Below, one piece after another: positions 5,549 to 53,859 of a DNA stretch of 64,000 nucleotides. The stretch's first letter is position 1. Each line of letters starts with the position of its first letter. The DNA lies in the NCBI RefSeq assembly GCF_003814875.1, contig NZ_RKQF01000001.1, positions 5,890,001 through 5,954,000 on the forward strand. The letters run 5' to 3'. A program made the translations under genes and the position numbers. The notes beneath the pieces were generated by a model. The model was not told the origin of the DNA. It made no database searches and saw only the letters and a program-made list of their open reading frames with translations. The DNA comes from Streptomyces sp. Ag109_O5-1. GTDB lineage: Bacteria > Actinomycetota > Actinomycetes > Streptomycetales > Streptomycetaceae.

Positions 5549-7483
5549 TCAGCGGGAGTGACGCGGGGACGTACGCGGACGCGAGCGGACGCGCACGAAG
5601 ACGAAGACCGCGGCGACGCCGGCGAGAACGACGCCCGCCAGTCCTGTGAGGGCCCACAGAGCACCGAAGTTGCTGCCGGTGTCCGCCATGGTGCCGGTGT
5701 CCGCCATGGTGCCGGTGGAGGCGCCCAGGGGGGTGGCCGCTCGGCCGGTCCGGGCCGGGGAGGGCGCCGGTGTCGTCGCGGCGGAGGAGGGGAGAGCGGT
5801 GAGCACGGTGTGGGCGCCGGCCCGGCTGGCGGAGAAGCGCGCCCCGCCGATGGCGAGACCGGTACCGGAGACTTTTGCGGTCGTCGAACCGACGGTCAGC
5901 TCACGGGAGTTCCGGGAAAGAAGGATCTTCGCGCCTGTGACGACCTTCAGCCTGCGCAGGGTCGTGTCGCGTGCCTTGCTGAGATCCAGGACGGCCGAGG
6001 AACCGGTCAGAGCGACCGCGCTGGATGTCCGCAGAGAGGTCCCGGAGACGATCAGGCTGCCTTTGGCCACGGTGGTGGGTCCGGTGTAGGCGGCGCTGGT
6101 GACGGTGGTGGCCGCGGCTCCGCTCTGCGTCACCGATCCGGCACCGGTCACCGCCGGGAGGGAGGTGGGTGTCCCGGTGTTGCGGAGCACGAGTGAACCG
6201 TTGTCGATCACTTTGTCGAGGGCTCCGCCGGTGTGGAGGCGCCCGTCGCCGCCCGCGGTCCCGGAGCCGAGACGGAGGGTCGCATTCCTGTCGATGGTGG
6301 TGGATCCGTCGTAGTACTGCGCTGCTGCGAAGGTCACGTCGTTGCCGCTGGTGCCGGCGATGACGACGTCCCCGGCGCCGGGAGCGCTGAGGGTGTCGTG
6401 ATACATGCCGCCGCCGATGGGCGCGCCCAGGGTCACCGGTCCGTTGTAGTCGAAGGTGAGCCGGGAGCGCTGCCGTCTGGCGTGCAGGTTGATGTAGACC
6501 GTCTGCGCCGTGCCGGGCATGAAGATCTGGTGCGTGGTCCCGTCGCCCCACTGGACGTCGGCGCCCTCGATGTTGGTGCCGCGCTTGTTCAGTTTGTGGG
6601 CCACGGGCCGCCAGTTCAGTCCGGGGTCGCTCAGCGACGGCGCCGCCCCGTCGCCGCTGTCGCTCCAGCTGTAGACGCCGGTGAGGATCACCTTGCTGCC
6701 CGGGCGGGAGTGCACATTGACGTCGTTGCCGTACTCGTGGCTGTAGAAGTTCTGCCGCTGTACGACAGTGTGGTTGAGCGGGGTGTCGATGATCCATGAA
6801 CCGCGGTTGACGACGGAGCGGGCGTTGGGCAGTTCGGCGGCACAGGTGGTGCTCGCGAAGTTGACGCCCGTGCCGTTGTCGAAGATGCCGGAGAACGGGT
6901 TGGTGCCACAGATCTGGAGCGTTCCCCACATGTTCCGGGGCTGGGTGACCAGGCCGGAGCCGCTGATGATGCCCAGGTTGAACAGCCGGGTCAGCGACAG
7001 ACGCAGGGTGCCGTCCACCCGGATGTTGTCCTGGTTCTGCTGGTAACCGGGCGTGTTGTACGGGAAGGACCCGATCAGGCCGGTCGTACCGCCGGTGCCG
7101 TACTGGAGGGTCGCCCCCGCGTCCACGGTGACCGCGGGCTCGTCAGCACTGGCGACCACGACGTACGGATGGTTACCGCCCGGTATCCGGACCCTCTGGT
7201 GCTGCCGGGAGTGCGGCAGGGTGAAGGTGCTGTCCTTGGCGAGGACCAGCGTGCCGCTGCCGGACACGCGAAGGGCTCCTTCACCGCTGATCACACCGGT
7301 GTACGTGTGGGTTCCCTGCGGGACGCGCACGACCGCGTCACCGGTCAGGACGACATCACGGTTCGCCAGGACGGCCGAGGTGATGTCGCCGTCTGCGGCG
7401 ACCGCGCTGCCCACCGCGACCACCGGTGTGACGGCTCCCGCGACGAGAGCCGACGCCAGGACAAGGTGCCAAGATCGATTCAT
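5549..7483 (-). CDS. Secreted, wall-anchored autotransporter-repeat (PATR-like) protein
   Basis: A 644-residue exported protein. An N-terminal signal peptide (MNRSWHLVLASALVAGAV, ending near AVAA) precedes a long region rich in Gly, Thr, Ser and Val. That region carries short beta-helix-like repeats such as GSGTLVLAK and GSLVLRN, the pattern of passenger-associated transport repeats. The C-terminus has a sorting-like TMADTG motif present twice in tandem, then a hydrophobic helix (about 24 residues) and an Arg-rich tail. That layout fits anchoring by a class E-type sortase that uses LAxTG-like motifs. The start at 7483 follows GGAAG and gives a clean signal peptide; the 70 codons upstream look non-coding. 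A surface adhesin or carbohydrate-interacting role is inferred only from architecture. Confidence 0.75.
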   Translation of the reverse strand: MNRSWHLVLASALVAGAVTPVVAVGSAVAADGDITSAVLANRDVVLTGDAVVRVPQGTHTYTGVISGEGALRVSGSGTLVLAKDSTFTLPHSRQHQRVRIPGGNHPYVVVASADEPAVTVDAGATLQYGTGGTTGLIGSFPYNTPGYQQNQDNIRVDGTLRLSLTRLFNLGIISGSGLVTQPRNMWGTLQICGTNPFSGIFDNGTGVNFASTTCAAELPNARSVVNRGSWIIDTPLNHTVVQRQNFYSHEYGNDVNVHSRPGSKVILTGVYSWSDSGDGAAPSLSDPGLNWRPVAHKLNKRGTNIEGADVQWGDGTTHQIFMPGTAQTVYINLHARRQRSRLTFDYNGPVTLGAPIGGGMYHDTLSAPGAGDVVIAGTSGNDVTFAAAQYYDGSTTIDRNATLRLGSGTAGGDGRLHTGGALDKVIDNGSLVLRNTGTPTSLPAVTGAGSVTQSGAAATTVTSAAYTGPTTVAKGSLIVSGTSLRTSSAVALTGSSAVLDLSKARDTTLRRLKVVTGAKILLSRNSRELTVGSTTAKVSGTGLAIGGARFSASRAGAHTVLTALPSSAATTPAPSPARTGRAATPLGASTGTMADTGTMADTGSNFGALWALTGLAGVVLAGVAAVFVFVRVRSRPRTSPRHSR

Positions 7484-48811: not shown

Positions 48812-49639
48812 TCAGGCGCCTGCGGCCGTGACGATCGCGTCGGTGGCGAAGCCGAGCAGGAGGCCGAGGAGGATGCACCAGGTGGTGAGCGTCTTGAGGC
48901 CGGTCTTGCGGGCGACGGCCAGCAGCTCGATGACGACGTAGAGGATGGAGCCCGCGGCAAGGCCGAGGAAGGCAATCGAGAGCGTGTCGTTGACCAGATG
49001 CTGGCCGACGAGGGTGCCCAGGAAGGTGGGACCGCCGCCGATCAGGCCGAGCAACAGCAGGCTGACCCAGGACGGGCGTTCGCCCTCGGCGGCCAGCGGA
49101 GCGACGATGCCGAAGCCCTCGGTGGCGTTGTGCAGGCCGAAGCCGATGATCAGCAGCAGGGCGAGGGAGAGTTCCCCCTGAGCGGCGGAGTTGCCGATGG
49201 CGAGGCCCTCGGCGAAGTTGTGCAGGCCGATGCCGGTGGCGATCATCAGCGCGAGCGATGCCGCTTGACTGCGAGGCTTCGGCGCCGGCTCGGCGGAGGC
49301 GGCGGCACCGGGACCTGCGGGCCGGGCGGCGGCTTCGCGGCGGCGGGCGATCCAGCCGTCGTAGTGAACCAGCCCGGCGAGTCCGATGGTCAGACCCGCC
49401 ACCAGGGTGGAGCCCCCCGACGCCACGGTTCCCCAGACGTGCTTGCCCAGGGCCTCGTCGATGGGCTCCCAGGCGTGGGTCAGTACGTCCCAGACGAGGA
49501 AGATCAGGATGCCGATGGCGACGGCGTTGAGGCCGGCCTTGAGCCGCGGGGTGGGTGTGCGGAGGCGCCCGAGAGGGAGGCCGAGGTAGATGGTGAAGCC
49601 TGCGATGGCTCCGAGCAGGGCGATGTTGCCGCTGGACAT
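48812..49639 (-). CDS. ZIP-family divalent metal transporter
   Basis: A 275-residue transporter with about eight hydrophobic segments. The metal-site helices carry GIGLHNFAEGLAIG and GFGLHNATEGFGIV, the HNxxEG signatures of ZIP proteins, with a long loop between helices three and four. ZIP proteins import zinc, iron or manganese into the cytosol. An iron-box-like sequence at 49684-49702 precedes the gene, so DmdR/IdeR control and iron or manganese uptake are more likely than zinc. The start is 49639. Confidence 0.9.
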   Translation of the reverse strand: MSSGNIALLGAIAGFTIYLGLPLGRLRTPTPRLKAGLNAVAIGILIFLVWDVLTHAWEPIDEALGKHVWGTVASGGSTLVAGLTIGLAGLVHYDGWIARRREAAARPAGPGAAASAEPAPKPRSQAASLALMIATGIGLHNFAEGLAIGNSAAQGELSLALLLIIGFGLHNATEGFGIVAPLAAEGERPSWVSLLLLGLIGGGPTFLGTLVGQHLVNDTLSIAFLGLAAGSILYVVIELLAVARKTGLKTLTTWCILLGLLLGFATDAIVTAAGA

Positions 49640-49702: not shown

Positions 49703-50132
49703 CAAGCCATGTAGGTCGACTTGGGTGAACCTTGATGAGGTCATTACATGTTCCTGCCCGTGGCGGGATGCAATCCCATCGAGCGTCGCGTTCGTACCAC
49801 TTCACGCTCTTACATCGGTTGCGGCAGGTCACGCAGCCAGAACGCGGCGCAATGCGCTACATGGTTTCCTCGCAACCGCAATCCGAAAGAGTGCCGCTTA
49901 CGTAACCTAGATGCAGCCCCGACCAGGGTTACGTCCCTGGGCAGGCGCCGATCACCTTGGCCGCGATGATCAATATCGTGCCCCGGAGTAGCGCCGGCTT
50001 GAGGGTCTGCAGCTTCCGCTCTCTGCGGAGGCCGAGATGAAAGTTGTCGTTGAACTTTCCCAACGTGAGCGGTAGGTGCAGTACGGATGCCTGGCTCCGG
50101 AGACGTTCCGGATGCACGGTGAGGAAGCGCTC
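49703..50132. other. Intergenic region between the iron box and the P450 locus
   Basis: About 430 bases with lower GC than the neighbours and no supported gene. Short frames on both strands show no family. It should hold the promoter for the small ORF and the P450 fusion. Confidence 0.4.
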
Positions 50133-50264
50133 ATGTACGACCCGAATCCCAGGAACGCTCGACACGACCAGGTTCTGCGTGCCGCGGCGACCTGCCTGGT
50201 CCAGGCGATCCTGGTCGACCGGCTGGAGTCGCAGCACGCAACGGCGGAGGCATCGCCGCCATGA
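50133..50264 (+). CDS. 43-residue ORF coupled to the reductase-P450 gene
   Basis: A short ORF, MYDPNPRNARHDQVLRAAAT followed by CLVQAILVDRLESQHATAEA. GAGGAAG precedes the ATG at the right distance, and its TGA overlaps the next ATG (ATGA), so it probably couples translation to the P450 fusion. The helix-forming middle has one Cys and no iron-sulfur motif, so it is not a ferredoxin. It may be a small partner of the fusion enzyme or a leader peptide. Confidence 0.5.
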   Translation: MYDPNPRNARHDQVLRAAATCLVQAILVDRLESQHATAEASPP

Positions 50265-52891
50265 CCAATGCCGACAACCTGCGCGCGTTCAGGCGCGAGG
50301 GTCGCATCGTGATCGTCGGGGCGTCACTGGCGGGACTGCGGGCGGCGGAGTTCCTGCGCGACGAGGGTTTCACCGGGTCGCTGACGATGATCGGTGACGA
50401 GCGGGGCGAGCCCTACGACCGGCCTCCCCTGTCCAAGCAGGTACTGACGGGGTGGGTGCCCGCCAGCGGCACCATGCTGCCGCGACGCCGTGAGATCGAT
50501 GCGGAGTGGCTGCTGGGTGTGCCCGCCAGCGGGCTGGACCTCGCGACGAACCATGTGCGGCTGGCCGATGGACGGGCGGTTCCCTTCGACCGGGTGCTGA
50601 TCTCCACCGGGGTACGGGCCCGGCCCTGGTTCGTCGAGTCTGAAGGAACCCTGGACGGGGTGTTCGTAGTACGTACGCGCCAGCATGCCGAGAGCCTGCA
50701 GCAAGCCCTCGCCGCCGGGCCTTCCCGCGTTCTGGTCATCGGCGCGGGGTTCACCGGCTCCGAGATCGCCTCCGTCTGCCGTGAGCGGGACATTCCGGTG
50801 ACCGTCGCCGAACTCGGGGCGGCTCCGCTGGTCGGGGCGCTGGGCGCCGTGATCGGTGAGGTCGCGGCGGACCTGCAACGCGCGCACGGCGTCGACCTGC
50901 GGTGCGATGTCAAGGTCACCCGTCTTGAGGGCGACGCGCAGGGCCGGTTTCGCCGTGCTCACTTCGACGACGGCAACAGCATCAACGCCGACGTGGCGGT
51001 GGTGGCACTCGGGAGCATCCGCAACACCGAGTGGCTGCGGGAGTCGGGACTGGCGGCAGGCGGGTGGGGCATCACCTGCGACACGGGCTGCCGCGCCCTC
51101 GACATCCATGGCCGCGTCACCGACGACGTCTTCGCCGCGGGCGACGTGGCACGTTGCCCCAACCCGGTCTACGGGTACCGGCTCATCTCGCTGGAGCACT
51201 GGGCCAACGCCGTGGAGCAGGCCGAGGTCGCCGCCCACAACATGGTCAACGGCCAGGCGGACCTCCGGCTCCACCTGTCCATCCCGGTGTTCTGGTCGAT
51301 CCAGTTCGGCGTCAACATCAAGTCCGTCGGCGTGCCGACCTTCGCCGACGAGGTGGTCGTCACCCAAGGATCGCTGCACGACCACCGCTTCGTCACCGCA
51401 TACGGCTATCGGGGCCGCGTCACGGCTGCCGTGAGCTTCGACAACGCCAAGTGGCTGAACCACTACCGGCGACTCATCGAGACGGCCGCACCCTTCCCGC
51501 CCCCCTGCCCCACGCCTGACCGGTCGGCCGACATGAAACCGGTGCGCGTCGACTTCCCCGACCCCACCGTGCTCGCCCAGGGTGCCACCGCGGTCGTCAC
51601 AGGCTATGACCCGGGTGAGCACCGCGTCACGGCTGCGCACCAGCATCGGCGGGAGGAAGGCCGGATACCCCCGACCGGGCTGCCCGGCACGTTGCAGCGG
51701 ATATACGACTACTCCTCCCGGGCCGACCCGTACCCGCTCTATGCGGAGCTGCGCCGGACACCGGTGGCCAGGCAGGAGGACGGCAGCTATGTCATCAGCA
51801 CCTATCGCGCGATCACCGACGTACTGAATGACCCGCATCTGAGTTCCGACGTGCGCAATCTGTCGCGTCCGATGCCCTCCGGGGAGGGAGGGGTCCCATT
51901 GTCGTTCATCCATATGGACCCGCCCGAGCACGACCGCCTGCGGCGCATGGCCATGCGCCACTTCGGCCCTCCGCACACCCCGGGACTGGTGACCGGCCTG
52001 GAAGGCGACCTGACTGCCACCGTCGGCAGCGTGATCGACGGTTTCACGGGCAAGGAGCGGATCGACGTCGTCGACGATTTCGCCTCCCCGCTCCCGGTGA
52101 CGGTGATCTGCCACCTGCTCGGCGTGCCACGCGAGGACGGACCGAGGTTCCACCTCTGGGTGAACGACATCATGAACTCGATCGACTACGACCCCAGGAC
52201 CGACCCGAAGGAGAGGCTGGAGAAGGGGGTACAGGCCCGCAAGGACTTGCGCCAGTGCCTCGGTGAGCTGGTGCAGCGGCGCCACGGCCGGCCGGGCGAC
52301 GGCCTGTTGAGCCGGCTGGCCAACGACGACGAGCCCGACGTCGACGGTCGGATGACCGACGCCGAAATCGTCGCCACCGCCAAACTGCTGCTGATCGCCG
52401 GACACGAGACCACCGTCAACCTCATCACCAACGGCATGCTGACGCTGCTGCGCCACCCACAGGTGCTGCGGCGACTGCGCGACGAACCGGACCTGGTCGT
52501 GCCGCTGGTCGAGGAACTGCTGCGCTACGAGCCCCCCGTGCAGATCATTCCCTGGCGCGCCGCGTACAGCGACATCACCGTCGGCGACACCGTCATCCCC
52601 AAGGGCTCGCGGATCACGCTCATGCTGGCCTCGGGCAGCCGCGATCCGGACCGCTTCCACGACCCCGACCGCTTCGACCCCGACCGGACCGACAACCAGC
52701 ACCTCGGCTTCGGCAGCGGCATCCACGCGTGCTTCGGCGGACCGCTGGCCCGGCGGGAAACCCAGATCGCGCTGACCGAGCTGGCACGCCGCCTCGACCA
52801 CCCCCGGCTGGTCACGGACCCCCCGCCGTACCGGCCCAGCCCCGTTCTTCGGGGGCCGATCCATCTGGAGATCGAGCAGGGTGACAGTTGA
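50261..52891 (+). CDS. Ferredoxin reductase-cytochrome P450 fusion protein
   Basis: An 876-residue protein that joins two electron-transfer proteins. Residues about 14-415 are a putidaredoxin-reductase-like FAD/NAD oxidoreductase (IVIVGASLAGLRAAEFLRDE, EPYDRPPLSKQ, VLVIGAGFTGSEIASVCRER, DDVFAAGDVARCPNP). After a linker of about 60 residues, residues about 475-876 are a P450: I-helix LLIAGHETT (residues 710-718), ExxR in VEELLRYEPP, and the haem loop FGSGIHACFGG with Cys824. No ferredoxin domain or gene lies in or beside it, so a ferredoxin from elsewhere or direct transfer is needed. Both halves look intact. The substrate is unknown. Fusions of FAD-type ferredoxin reductase to P450 without a ferredoxin are uncommon. 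Confidence 0.9.
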   Translation: MTNADNLRAFRREGRIVIVGASLAGLRAAEFLRDEGFTGSLTMIGDERGEPYDRPPLSKQVLTGWVPASGTMLPRRREIDAEWLLGVPASGLDLATNHVRLADGRAVPFDRVLISTGVRARPWFVESEGTLDGVFVVRTRQHAESLQQALAAGPSRVLVIGAGFTGSEIASVCRERDIPVTVAELGAAPLVGALGAVIGEVAADLQRAHGVDLRCDVKVTRLEGDAQGRFRRAHFDDGNSINADVAVVALGSIRNTEWLRESGLAAGGWGITCDTGCRALDIHGRVTDDVFAAGDVARCPNPVYGYRLISLEHWANAVEQAEVAAHNMVNGQADLRLHLSIPVFWSIQFGVNIKSVGVPTFADEVVVTQGSLHDHRFVTAYGYRGRVTAAVSFDNAKWLNHYRRLIETAAPFPPPCPTPDRSADMKPVRVDFPDPTVLAQGATAVVTGYDPGEHRVTAAHQHRREEGRIPPTGLPGTLQRIYDYSSRADPYPLYAELRRTPVARQEDGSYVISTYRAITDVLNDPHLSSDVRNLSRPMPSGEGGVPLSFIHMDPPEHDRLRRMAMRHFGPPHTPGLVTGLEGDLTATVGSVIDGFTGKERIDVVDDFASPLPVTVICHLLGVPREDGPRFHLWVNDIMNSIDYDPRTDPKERLEKGVQARKDLRQCLGELVQRRHGRPGDGLLSRLANDDEPDVDGRMTDAEIVATAKLLLIAGHETTVNLITNGMLTLLRHPQVLRRLRDEPDLVVPLVEELLRYEPPVQIIPWRAAYSDITVGDTVIPKGSRITLMLASGSRDPDRFHDPDRFDPDRTDNQHLGFGSGIHACFGGPLARRETQIALTELARRLDHPRLVTDPPPYRPSPVLRGPIHLEIEQGDS

Positions 52892-53331
52892 CGCGGCAGC
52901 CGCGGGCAGTTGCAAGGTCGCGCCGCGCGCGCTGCCGCCTACCGGCAGAGCCTGCAACGGCTGCGTGAGATGGATGTCCTGATCGGCTCGTACGAGCCGC
53001 ACAAGCCCAAGACAGGCGGAGGCGCCGACCGCTTCCAGTGGGAGGAAGCGCTGGAACTGTTGGTACCCGGGGTGAGCCAGAAGTTTCCTCGGCACGGCAG
53101 GCGGTCGGCGTCGCTCAGCGGCGAGGACGAAACTTGCCCGCCTGCGGTGGCCTTGTGGCACCACCCCGTGGCGGAGAGGTACCCCTGTCCGGGCAGGCGC
53201 TTTCCCTCAAGACATCCTCGGCCGGCCCGGCATGGTGGCCGAAAGGCGGCTCTTGCCAAGACTTGCGCGCATACCAGCACAAGACTGGCGGGCAGAGTCG
53301 TCCAATACACCAGCCGTTGGGGGGAAGATGC
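52892..53331. other. Region between the P450 gene and the next membrane protein
   Basis: No assured gene. A rightward stretch at about 52930-53090 reads AAAYRQSLQRLREMDVLIGS, then PHKPKTGGGADRFQWEEALE and LLVPG. It looks protein-like and may be a remnant, but I recognise no family and no start. The rest of the region is featureless. Confidence 0.3.
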
Positions 53332-53859
53332 ATGTCACCGGACTGGGCAACAACCATCACCACTGTGGGCGGGGTGGCCGCCGCCTTGATCGGCGTGGTG
53401 GCCGGCTCATTACTCACCAGCCGCAGCGAACGCACACATTGGGCACGTGACAAGCAGATCGCCGCCTGCTCTGCGATCGTCGCCGAGTCCACCCGGATCC
53501 AACTCGCGCTACGTCGCGCCTGGAAGCTCGGCGACCCCGTGGACTGGGTGCCTTGGAACGTGGCCTTGGGAACGATCTGGCTGGTCGGCAGTCCTGCAGT
53601 CGTCGATGCCGCAGCTCGGGTCGACGAAGTGTTCTGGGACTGCAGCGATCAGTTCATCCGGCAAGTCGCACCCGATGAACAGTCCTGGGGCGAGGCGCGC
53701 GACCGAATGGAAACCGCGCGGCTCCACTTCATCAACACCGCACGTCTTCATATCGATCCCCAGCGCTCACGGCTCACCCAGGTGCCTGTCAGCCGACCGC
53801 CCCAACCGCGTCTTGCAGGACCGGAACCAGAAGGGGCCGGGGCGCCCGACGCCGCATAA
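53332..53859 (+). CDS. Hypothetical single-pass membrane protein
   Basis: A 175-residue protein with one N-terminal transmembrane helix (TITTVGGVAAALIGVVAGSL, about residues 8-27) and a cytoplasmic helical body of about 130 residues (DKQIAACSAIVAESTRIQLA, VDWVPWNVALGTIWLVGS, MFWD-like VFWDCSDQFI). The C-terminus is Pro-rich. I do not recognise a family, but the layout resembles small actinobacterial proteins that coil against the membrane. The ATG at 53332 was chosen because the hydrophobic helix starts there and GGGGAAG precedes it. It is the last gene before the intact tRNA-Gly. Confidence 0.6.
   Translation: MSPDWATTITTVGGVAAALIGVVAGSLLTSRSERTHWARDKQIAACSAIVAESTRIQLALRRAWKLGDPVDWVPWNVALGTIWLVGSPAVVDAAARVDEVFWDCSDQFIRQVAPDEQSWGEARDRMETARLHFINTARLHIDPQRSRLTQVPVSRPPQPRLAGPEPEGAGAPDAA

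Follow-up and report, generated by a model that had tools for sequence, protein, structure and literature searches.

A natural ferredoxin reductase-P450 fusion in Streptomyces that probably still depends on a ferredoxin

How does a cytochrome P450 obtain its electrons when it is joined in one chain to a ferredoxin reductase and no electron-carrier domain lies between the two? This question is raised by a gene in a 64,000-nucleotide stretch of the genome of Streptomyces sp. Ag109_O5-1 (hereafter the window), in which an earlier note, made from the sequence alone, recognised one open frame encoding an intact FAD/NAD reductase and a full P450, with about 60 linker residues between them. Pfam, PDB and motif comparisons agree with that description (Table 1). 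The fusion proved to be natural and genuine, and the gene probably represents an altered class I system that is still ferredoxin-dependent.

In the reductase part, Pyr_redox_2 was matched at residues 15-321 (E 2.4e-43) and Reductase_C at residues 344-425 (E 4.6e-10), while the best p450 stretch was found at residues 600-856 (E 8.3e-32); together with Pyr_redox and a sub-threshold NAD_binding_8, these make up the complete Pfam list of the chain. PDB matches widen the reductase to about residues 15-426, through biphenyl-dioxygenase-type ferredoxin reductase structures, and the P450 to about residues 475-870, through bacterial P450s of which CYP164A2 is the best. The motifs GASLAG (residue 20), GAGFTGSE (161) and AGDVAR (293) of the reductase, and AGHETT (713), EELLR with its ExxR (751) and FGSGIHACFGG (817, with Cys 824) of the P450, are taken by us to be the FAD and NAD sites, the I-helix, the ExxR motif and the haem loop. 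No FMN, [2Fe-2S] or flavodoxin carrier domain was detected by the Pfam scan of the 876 residues. The linker showed an omega of 0.49 over the fused copies only and is of low confidence in the AlphaFold2 model, the overall quality of which (mean pLDDT 67.5, pTM 0.50, residues 334-474 below 50) is too poor for the domain geometry to be judged from it.

Table 1. Features of the fused locus (positions in the window) and split cassettes of the same genome (positions on contig C1 of the window genome, G000)
Feature	Position	Strand	Basis or remark
Ferredoxin pseudogene, cognate single-cluster type	50037..50264	+	Translation, comparison with intact homologues, own-genome search
Fused ferredoxin reductase-P450 gene	50261..52891	+	ATG start, 876 codons (876 aa), zero internal stops
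FAD/NAD(P)H ferredoxin-reductase domain, residues 15-425	50303..51535	+	Pfam Pyr_redox_2 and Reductase_C; PDB matches
Linker, about residues 426-486 (about 60)	51536..51718	+	Ancestral reductase tail plus ancestral P450 N-terminus
Codon 464 (CGG), site of ancestral reductase stop	51650..51652	+	TAG in same-frame split homologues (nucleotide comparison)
GGAGG, putative relict ribosome-binding site of the formerly separate P450 gene	51652..51656	+	Role inferred
Codon 469 (ATA), site of ancestral P450 start	51665..51667	+	ATG in split homologues
Cytochrome P450 domain, about residues 487-870	51719..52870	+	Pfam, PDB, motifs; haem Cys824 at 52730-52732
Split cassettes, window genome	G000:C1:448615-451308, 1595740-1598286, 5790603-5793222, 9777229-9779869

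Since the wider family is mostly split, a sequencing or assembly error could in principle have removed a stop between two genes that are truly separate. However, 19 distinct full-length copies (the window's included), from different assemblies, run in frame without a stop in the linker, and in 18 of them the old P450 start is neither ATG nor GTG nor TTG, by which a lost-stop artefact is ruled out for all practical purposes. A search for fused homologues, suggested in the earlier note, thus yielded 18 beside the window's own, and the fusion that it had claimed is genuine and common to all of them. The finding that it had held would refute the claim, namely homologues encoded as two genes with a stop and a start in the linker, is true of the wider family and false for the fused copies.

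The 19 fused copies were compared with 33 split ones, counted after removal of exact duplicates among full-length copies with a reductase identity above 75%; L020 (contig end), L021 (decayed), L025 (short P450 match), L054 (frameshifted), L097 (truncated), and L049 and L060 (no reductase match) had been excluded beforehand. Relatives on genome contigs were the best 80 of 86, to which plasmid and whole-genome searches added further ones, and within those best 80 the named fused copies belong to the genera Streptomyces and Actinacidiphila. Two fused copies sit on linear plasmid records. A full-length fused copy was present in 7 of 392 genomes of the genus, including that of the window, when each genome was scored on its two best candidates. 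Across 396 genomes of the phylum there were 9 matches at E<=1e-100, from 2 of 236 genera, the window's own being the only fused one; the relatives in the second genus were all split, two of them with 53% identity over the whole.

In a nucleotide tree of the 52 copies, all 19 fused ones fall into one clade, with a UFBoot support of only 64, which adjoins the split copies L032, L033, L034 and L038 and has the window as its deepest and longest branch. The fused gene therefore appears, at this support, to be nested as a single clade in a family of split ferredoxin-reductase-P450 operons. Among the excluded loci, L020 (1-2112) is fused through a far longer linker with repeated GKVTS units, its contig beginning inside the reductase, whereas L021 (7237-9243) is a decayed fused remnant covering query residues 155-805, where no ferredoxin was found, and L060 (6001-6330) a decayed scrap matching residues 766-875.

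The junction is consistent with a TAG stop and an ATG start having been lost. Split copies typically read TAGGAGGGAAAGCGAG-ATG-ACC at this point, with the reductase stop overlapping the ribosome-binding site of the P450 gene, and fused copies CAGGAGGAAGGCCGG-ACG-ACC. The old stop site is CAG in 15 of the 19 fused copies (CGG in the window) and the old start site is ACG in 14 (ATA in the window). The single fused copy with a start codon at the old P450 start, L091, carries GTG there, and in L001 and L011 an in-frame ATG follows after a few codons, so an additional, separately started P450 is conceivable in these three.

Directly upstream of the fusion lies the ferredoxin gene that completes the split operons, and in the window it is broken, with an in-frame TAG at 50073-50075 (codon 13) and the CxxYxxC motif gone; its TGA (50262-50264) and the start codon of the fused gene overlap as ATGA. 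Two intact relatives (L001 and L120) match Pfam Fer4_13/Fer4_15, and the paralogous ferredoxin described below, used as query against the window genome, recovered the dead gene at 67% identity (E 1.8e-23) with one TAG inside. A ferredoxin of the CxxYxxC(X)nCP type accompanies the reductase and P450 in 33 of 33 split copies, scored intact by a motif test, versus 12 of 19 fused ones (with H for Y in L007), the other 7 being damaged (Fisher p 3.8e-4). Outside these counts, L025 has an intact ferredoxin as well, and a composite ferredoxin of the split type is 89-90% identical to the intact ones of the fused L004 and L011.

The damage takes different forms. Besides the stop and lost cysteines of the window, the front of the gene is replaced in L003, both ends are truncated in L046, the second Cys is changed to Arg in L005 and L118 (the frame being otherwise open, with one lost cluster cysteine as the main defect), and L119 combines a stop with a Cys to Arg change. 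In L013 the gene is absent, since unrelated DNA replaces it together with the first reductase residues upstream of position 6001, while the fused frame is open. If L005, L118 and L119 share one event, about five events would be needed on the tree.

Selection was assessed through estimates of omega from an MG94xHKY likelihood over 26 taxa (19 fused, 7 split), with a fixed topology, at most 40 optimiser steps and convergence unchecked. For split, other fused and ferredoxin-damaged fused branches, respectively, omega was 0.121, 0.160 and 0.118 in the reductase (2dL 7.65 against one omega, 2 df), 0.135, 0.182 and 0.123 in the P450 (2dL 8.25, 2 df) and 0.145, 0.262 and 0.476 in the ferredoxin (2dL 7.40, 2 df). 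On the window branch it was 0.117 in the reductase, 0.112 in the P450 and 0.73 in the ferredoxin, with 2dL values against the rest of 1.31, 2.15 and 5.10, so that only the ferredoxin shift is notable there, and the reductase and P450, not significantly lower than elsewhere, are simply not relaxed. An omega of 1 was rejected for reductase plus P450 on this branch (2dL 164). The fused enzyme of the window is thus under strong purifying selection beside a relaxed ferredoxin, and such selection where the ferredoxin is damaged indicates that the enzyme is still needed despite the dead gene.

These values also bear on the idea that the whole fused cassette is redundant with a paralogue and on its way out, the ferredoxin being the first part to break. 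L021 and L060 are indeed scraps, both species that bear them also have a split relative (L026, L018), and, as whole fused cassettes decay too, redundancy could simply have struck the ferredoxin gene first. Such wholesale redundancy is nevertheless doubtful and has only a small chance of being correct, as 7 of 7 full-length fused copies with a damaged ferredoxin stay open, the omega of the fused enzyme on these single branches is 0.107 to 0.227, and neutrality is rejected on the branch of the window.

The genomes that carry the fusion differ in what else they contain. A close split cassette, 80-86% identical across its reductase half or its full length, was found in 5 of 5 searched genomes with a damaged local ferredoxin (the window's, L003, L005, L013 and L046) versus 2 of 12 with an intact one (L008 and L091; p 0.0034), an association that covers 17 genomes, several of them drafts and the related species among them not independent, with L118 and L119 (plasmid records with damaged ferredoxins) left out and with only part of the first-look candidates scored in 4 of the 12 counted genomes of one search that are not plasmid records. 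The ferredoxin of the close cassette is intact in all five genomes with a damaged one. In the window genome, four further split reductase-P450 cassettes occur, each with a stop-free upstream ferredoxin match; the close paralogue lies about 147 kb from the fusion, and its ferredoxin occupies G000:C1:5793222-5793458. The constituents of a class I system are hence all encoded in this genome, with an intact FAD reductase and P450 in the fusion and matching ferredoxins elsewhere, one of them beside the close split paralogue. It is probably because this related copy can do its job that the local ferredoxin gene is broken.

A ferredoxin other than that of the close paralogue might serve the fused enzyme, given that the query with the paralogous ferredoxin matched 13 places in the window genome at E<=0.01 (a figure that includes the query and the dead gene), with the ferredoxins of the three other split cassettes at 63-67%. 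This is unlikely. Distant cassettes (about 55-65%) are present in the searched genomes whether the local ferredoxin is damaged or intact, and for that reason cannot explain the pattern of ferredoxin loss. Moreover, CYP147G1 of M. marinum worked, as described for 11 ferredoxins tested, with its own only (PMC6237146), and comparable strictness would explain why a close paralogue matters.

The same pattern weighs on a more radical reading, in which the FAD would reduce the tethered haem directly and the ferredoxin, no longer needed, was lost in parallel in several lineages. Damage in 7 of 19 fused versus 0 of 33 split copies would be expected from it, and so would the strong selection on the fused enzyme where the ferredoxin is damaged (branch omega 0.107-0.227). 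Yet 12 of the 19 fused copies keep an intact ferredoxin, with an omega of 0.26 on undamaged fused branches, and among the searchable genomes damage occurs only alongside a close paralogous ferredoxin. In addition, FAD-only reductases of the fold of the fused enzyme normally need a one-electron carrier. Ferredoxin-independence is accordingly decidedly unlikely.

The simplest explanation for damage only where a close paralogue was found is a fused enzyme that has kept its need for a ferredoxin, with the local gene dying only where a close relative exists. We therefore consider it likely, though well short of certain, that the fusion is a tethered class I system of the CYP147 type which still uses a ferredoxin, supplied in trans in the window genome by the paralogue about 147 kb away. 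The starting state would have been a CYP147-type class I cassette of ferredoxin, reductase and P450 genes, close together or overlapping, in which the stop and start between the reductase and P450 genes were lost to give one gene. Electrons would pass from NAD(P)H to FAD, on to a separate single-cluster ferredoxin and from there to the tethered haem domain, a route suggested by the conservation and paralogue patterns only, and the reaction of the fused enzyme would be the hydroxylation of a lipophilic compound, for which a fatty acid is plausible. In the window lineage the local ferredoxin gene died and the ferredoxin of the second, unfused cassette would serve instead. Supply in trans does not predict the higher omega on fused branches with an intact ferredoxin (0.16-0.18) than on those with a damaged one (0.12).

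With regard to the earlier note, its phrase "without ferredoxin" is misleading, as a cognate ferredoxin gene stands directly upstream and, though broken in the window, is intact in 12 of the 19 fused copies, and a system without ferredoxin is not supported, as the window genome keeps relatives of the broken one elsewhere. The term "putidaredoxin-reductase-like" is fair for the fold of the reductase, but the ferredoxin has a single cluster and belongs to the CxxYxxC...CP type, and the two intact ones scanned match Fer4_13/Fer4_15 rather than a [2Fe-2S] putidaredoxin family.

The surroundings of the cassettes vary. No neighbour gene common to most fused loci was found among the 16 compared. Seven of these 16 (L001, L004, L006, L007, L010, L013 and L014) have another P450-like gene, a weak P450 match in L004, whose end lies about 0.3-1.7 kb upstream of the fusion. 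It was not found beside the fusion in the window, where a gene for a ZIP-family zinc transporter lies upstream on the opposite strand (48812-49639, minus) and, downstream at 52910-53856, two scanned ORFs have no Pfam match and may be non-coding or remnants. A GH15/trehalase-like gene (L120:10730-12547) comes after the split cassette in L120, L031 and L041; matches to it, some of them only fragments, were obtained at ten other loci, none of them fused.

In one branch of soil Streptomyces, fusion has joined the two outer members of an electron chain of three proteins; the middle one stayed free and was subsequently damaged or lost at the locus in what would be about five lineages. Since every state is represented among close relatives (split with ferredoxin, fused with ferredoxin, fused without a working ferredoxin, and decayed), the steps from class I towards one-chain P450s are directly testable, including whether a P450 system can dispense with its ferredoxin, and the fused scaffold could interest P450 engineers. 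Direct transfer, if true, would make this a one-chain ferredoxin reductase-P450 system without an FMN or iron-sulphur carrier.

CYP116B and P450RhF are members of class VII, and CYP102A1 (BM3) is a member of class VIII. Both classes resemble the present fusion in having reductase and P450 in one chain, but the class VII reductase is of the FMN/[2Fe-2S] type and that of class VIII a diflavin FAD/FMN one (PMC9112060), whereas here the reductase is N-terminal and FAD-type, without an iron-sulphur domain, and no FMN domain was found by Pfam. The redox class table in that source lists no ferredoxin reductase-P450 fusion that lacks a carrier or works with a free ferredoxin, in line with the view of the earlier note that the arrangement is unusual; among the open-access PMC matches listed, by titles and abstract starts, none describes a natural fusion of this kind without ferredoxin, a statement about these matches and not about print at large. 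CYP51-fx of M. capsulatus likewise has one partner fused, through a flexible tether, and the other free, but there, as portrayed in PMC9519919, it is the ferredoxin that is fused and the reductase that is free, the reverse of the situation here.

The closest likeness is to the CYP147 operons, and the CYP147 label suggested here draws on operon make-up, reductase length and genus distribution. According to the accounts of these operons, M. marinum has Fdx3/FdR1/CYP147G1 with an FdR1 of 466 aa, its ferredoxin and that of S. avermitilis (CYP147B1) carry a CxxYxxC...CP motif, and M. xanthus has its ferredoxin and reductase in fused form (PMC6237146), while S. virginiae has svf06/svfr03/svu020 with svfr03 listed as 464 aa (PMC3599690). 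Fatty-acid hydroxylation is reported for CYP147G1 and CYP147F1 (PMC6237146, PMC9962201). The split homologues share the content and order of these operons, most of their reductases being 463-464 aa; in contrast to the described operons, in which reductase and P450 are separate even where ferredoxin and reductase are joined, it is the reductase and the P450 that form one chain here.
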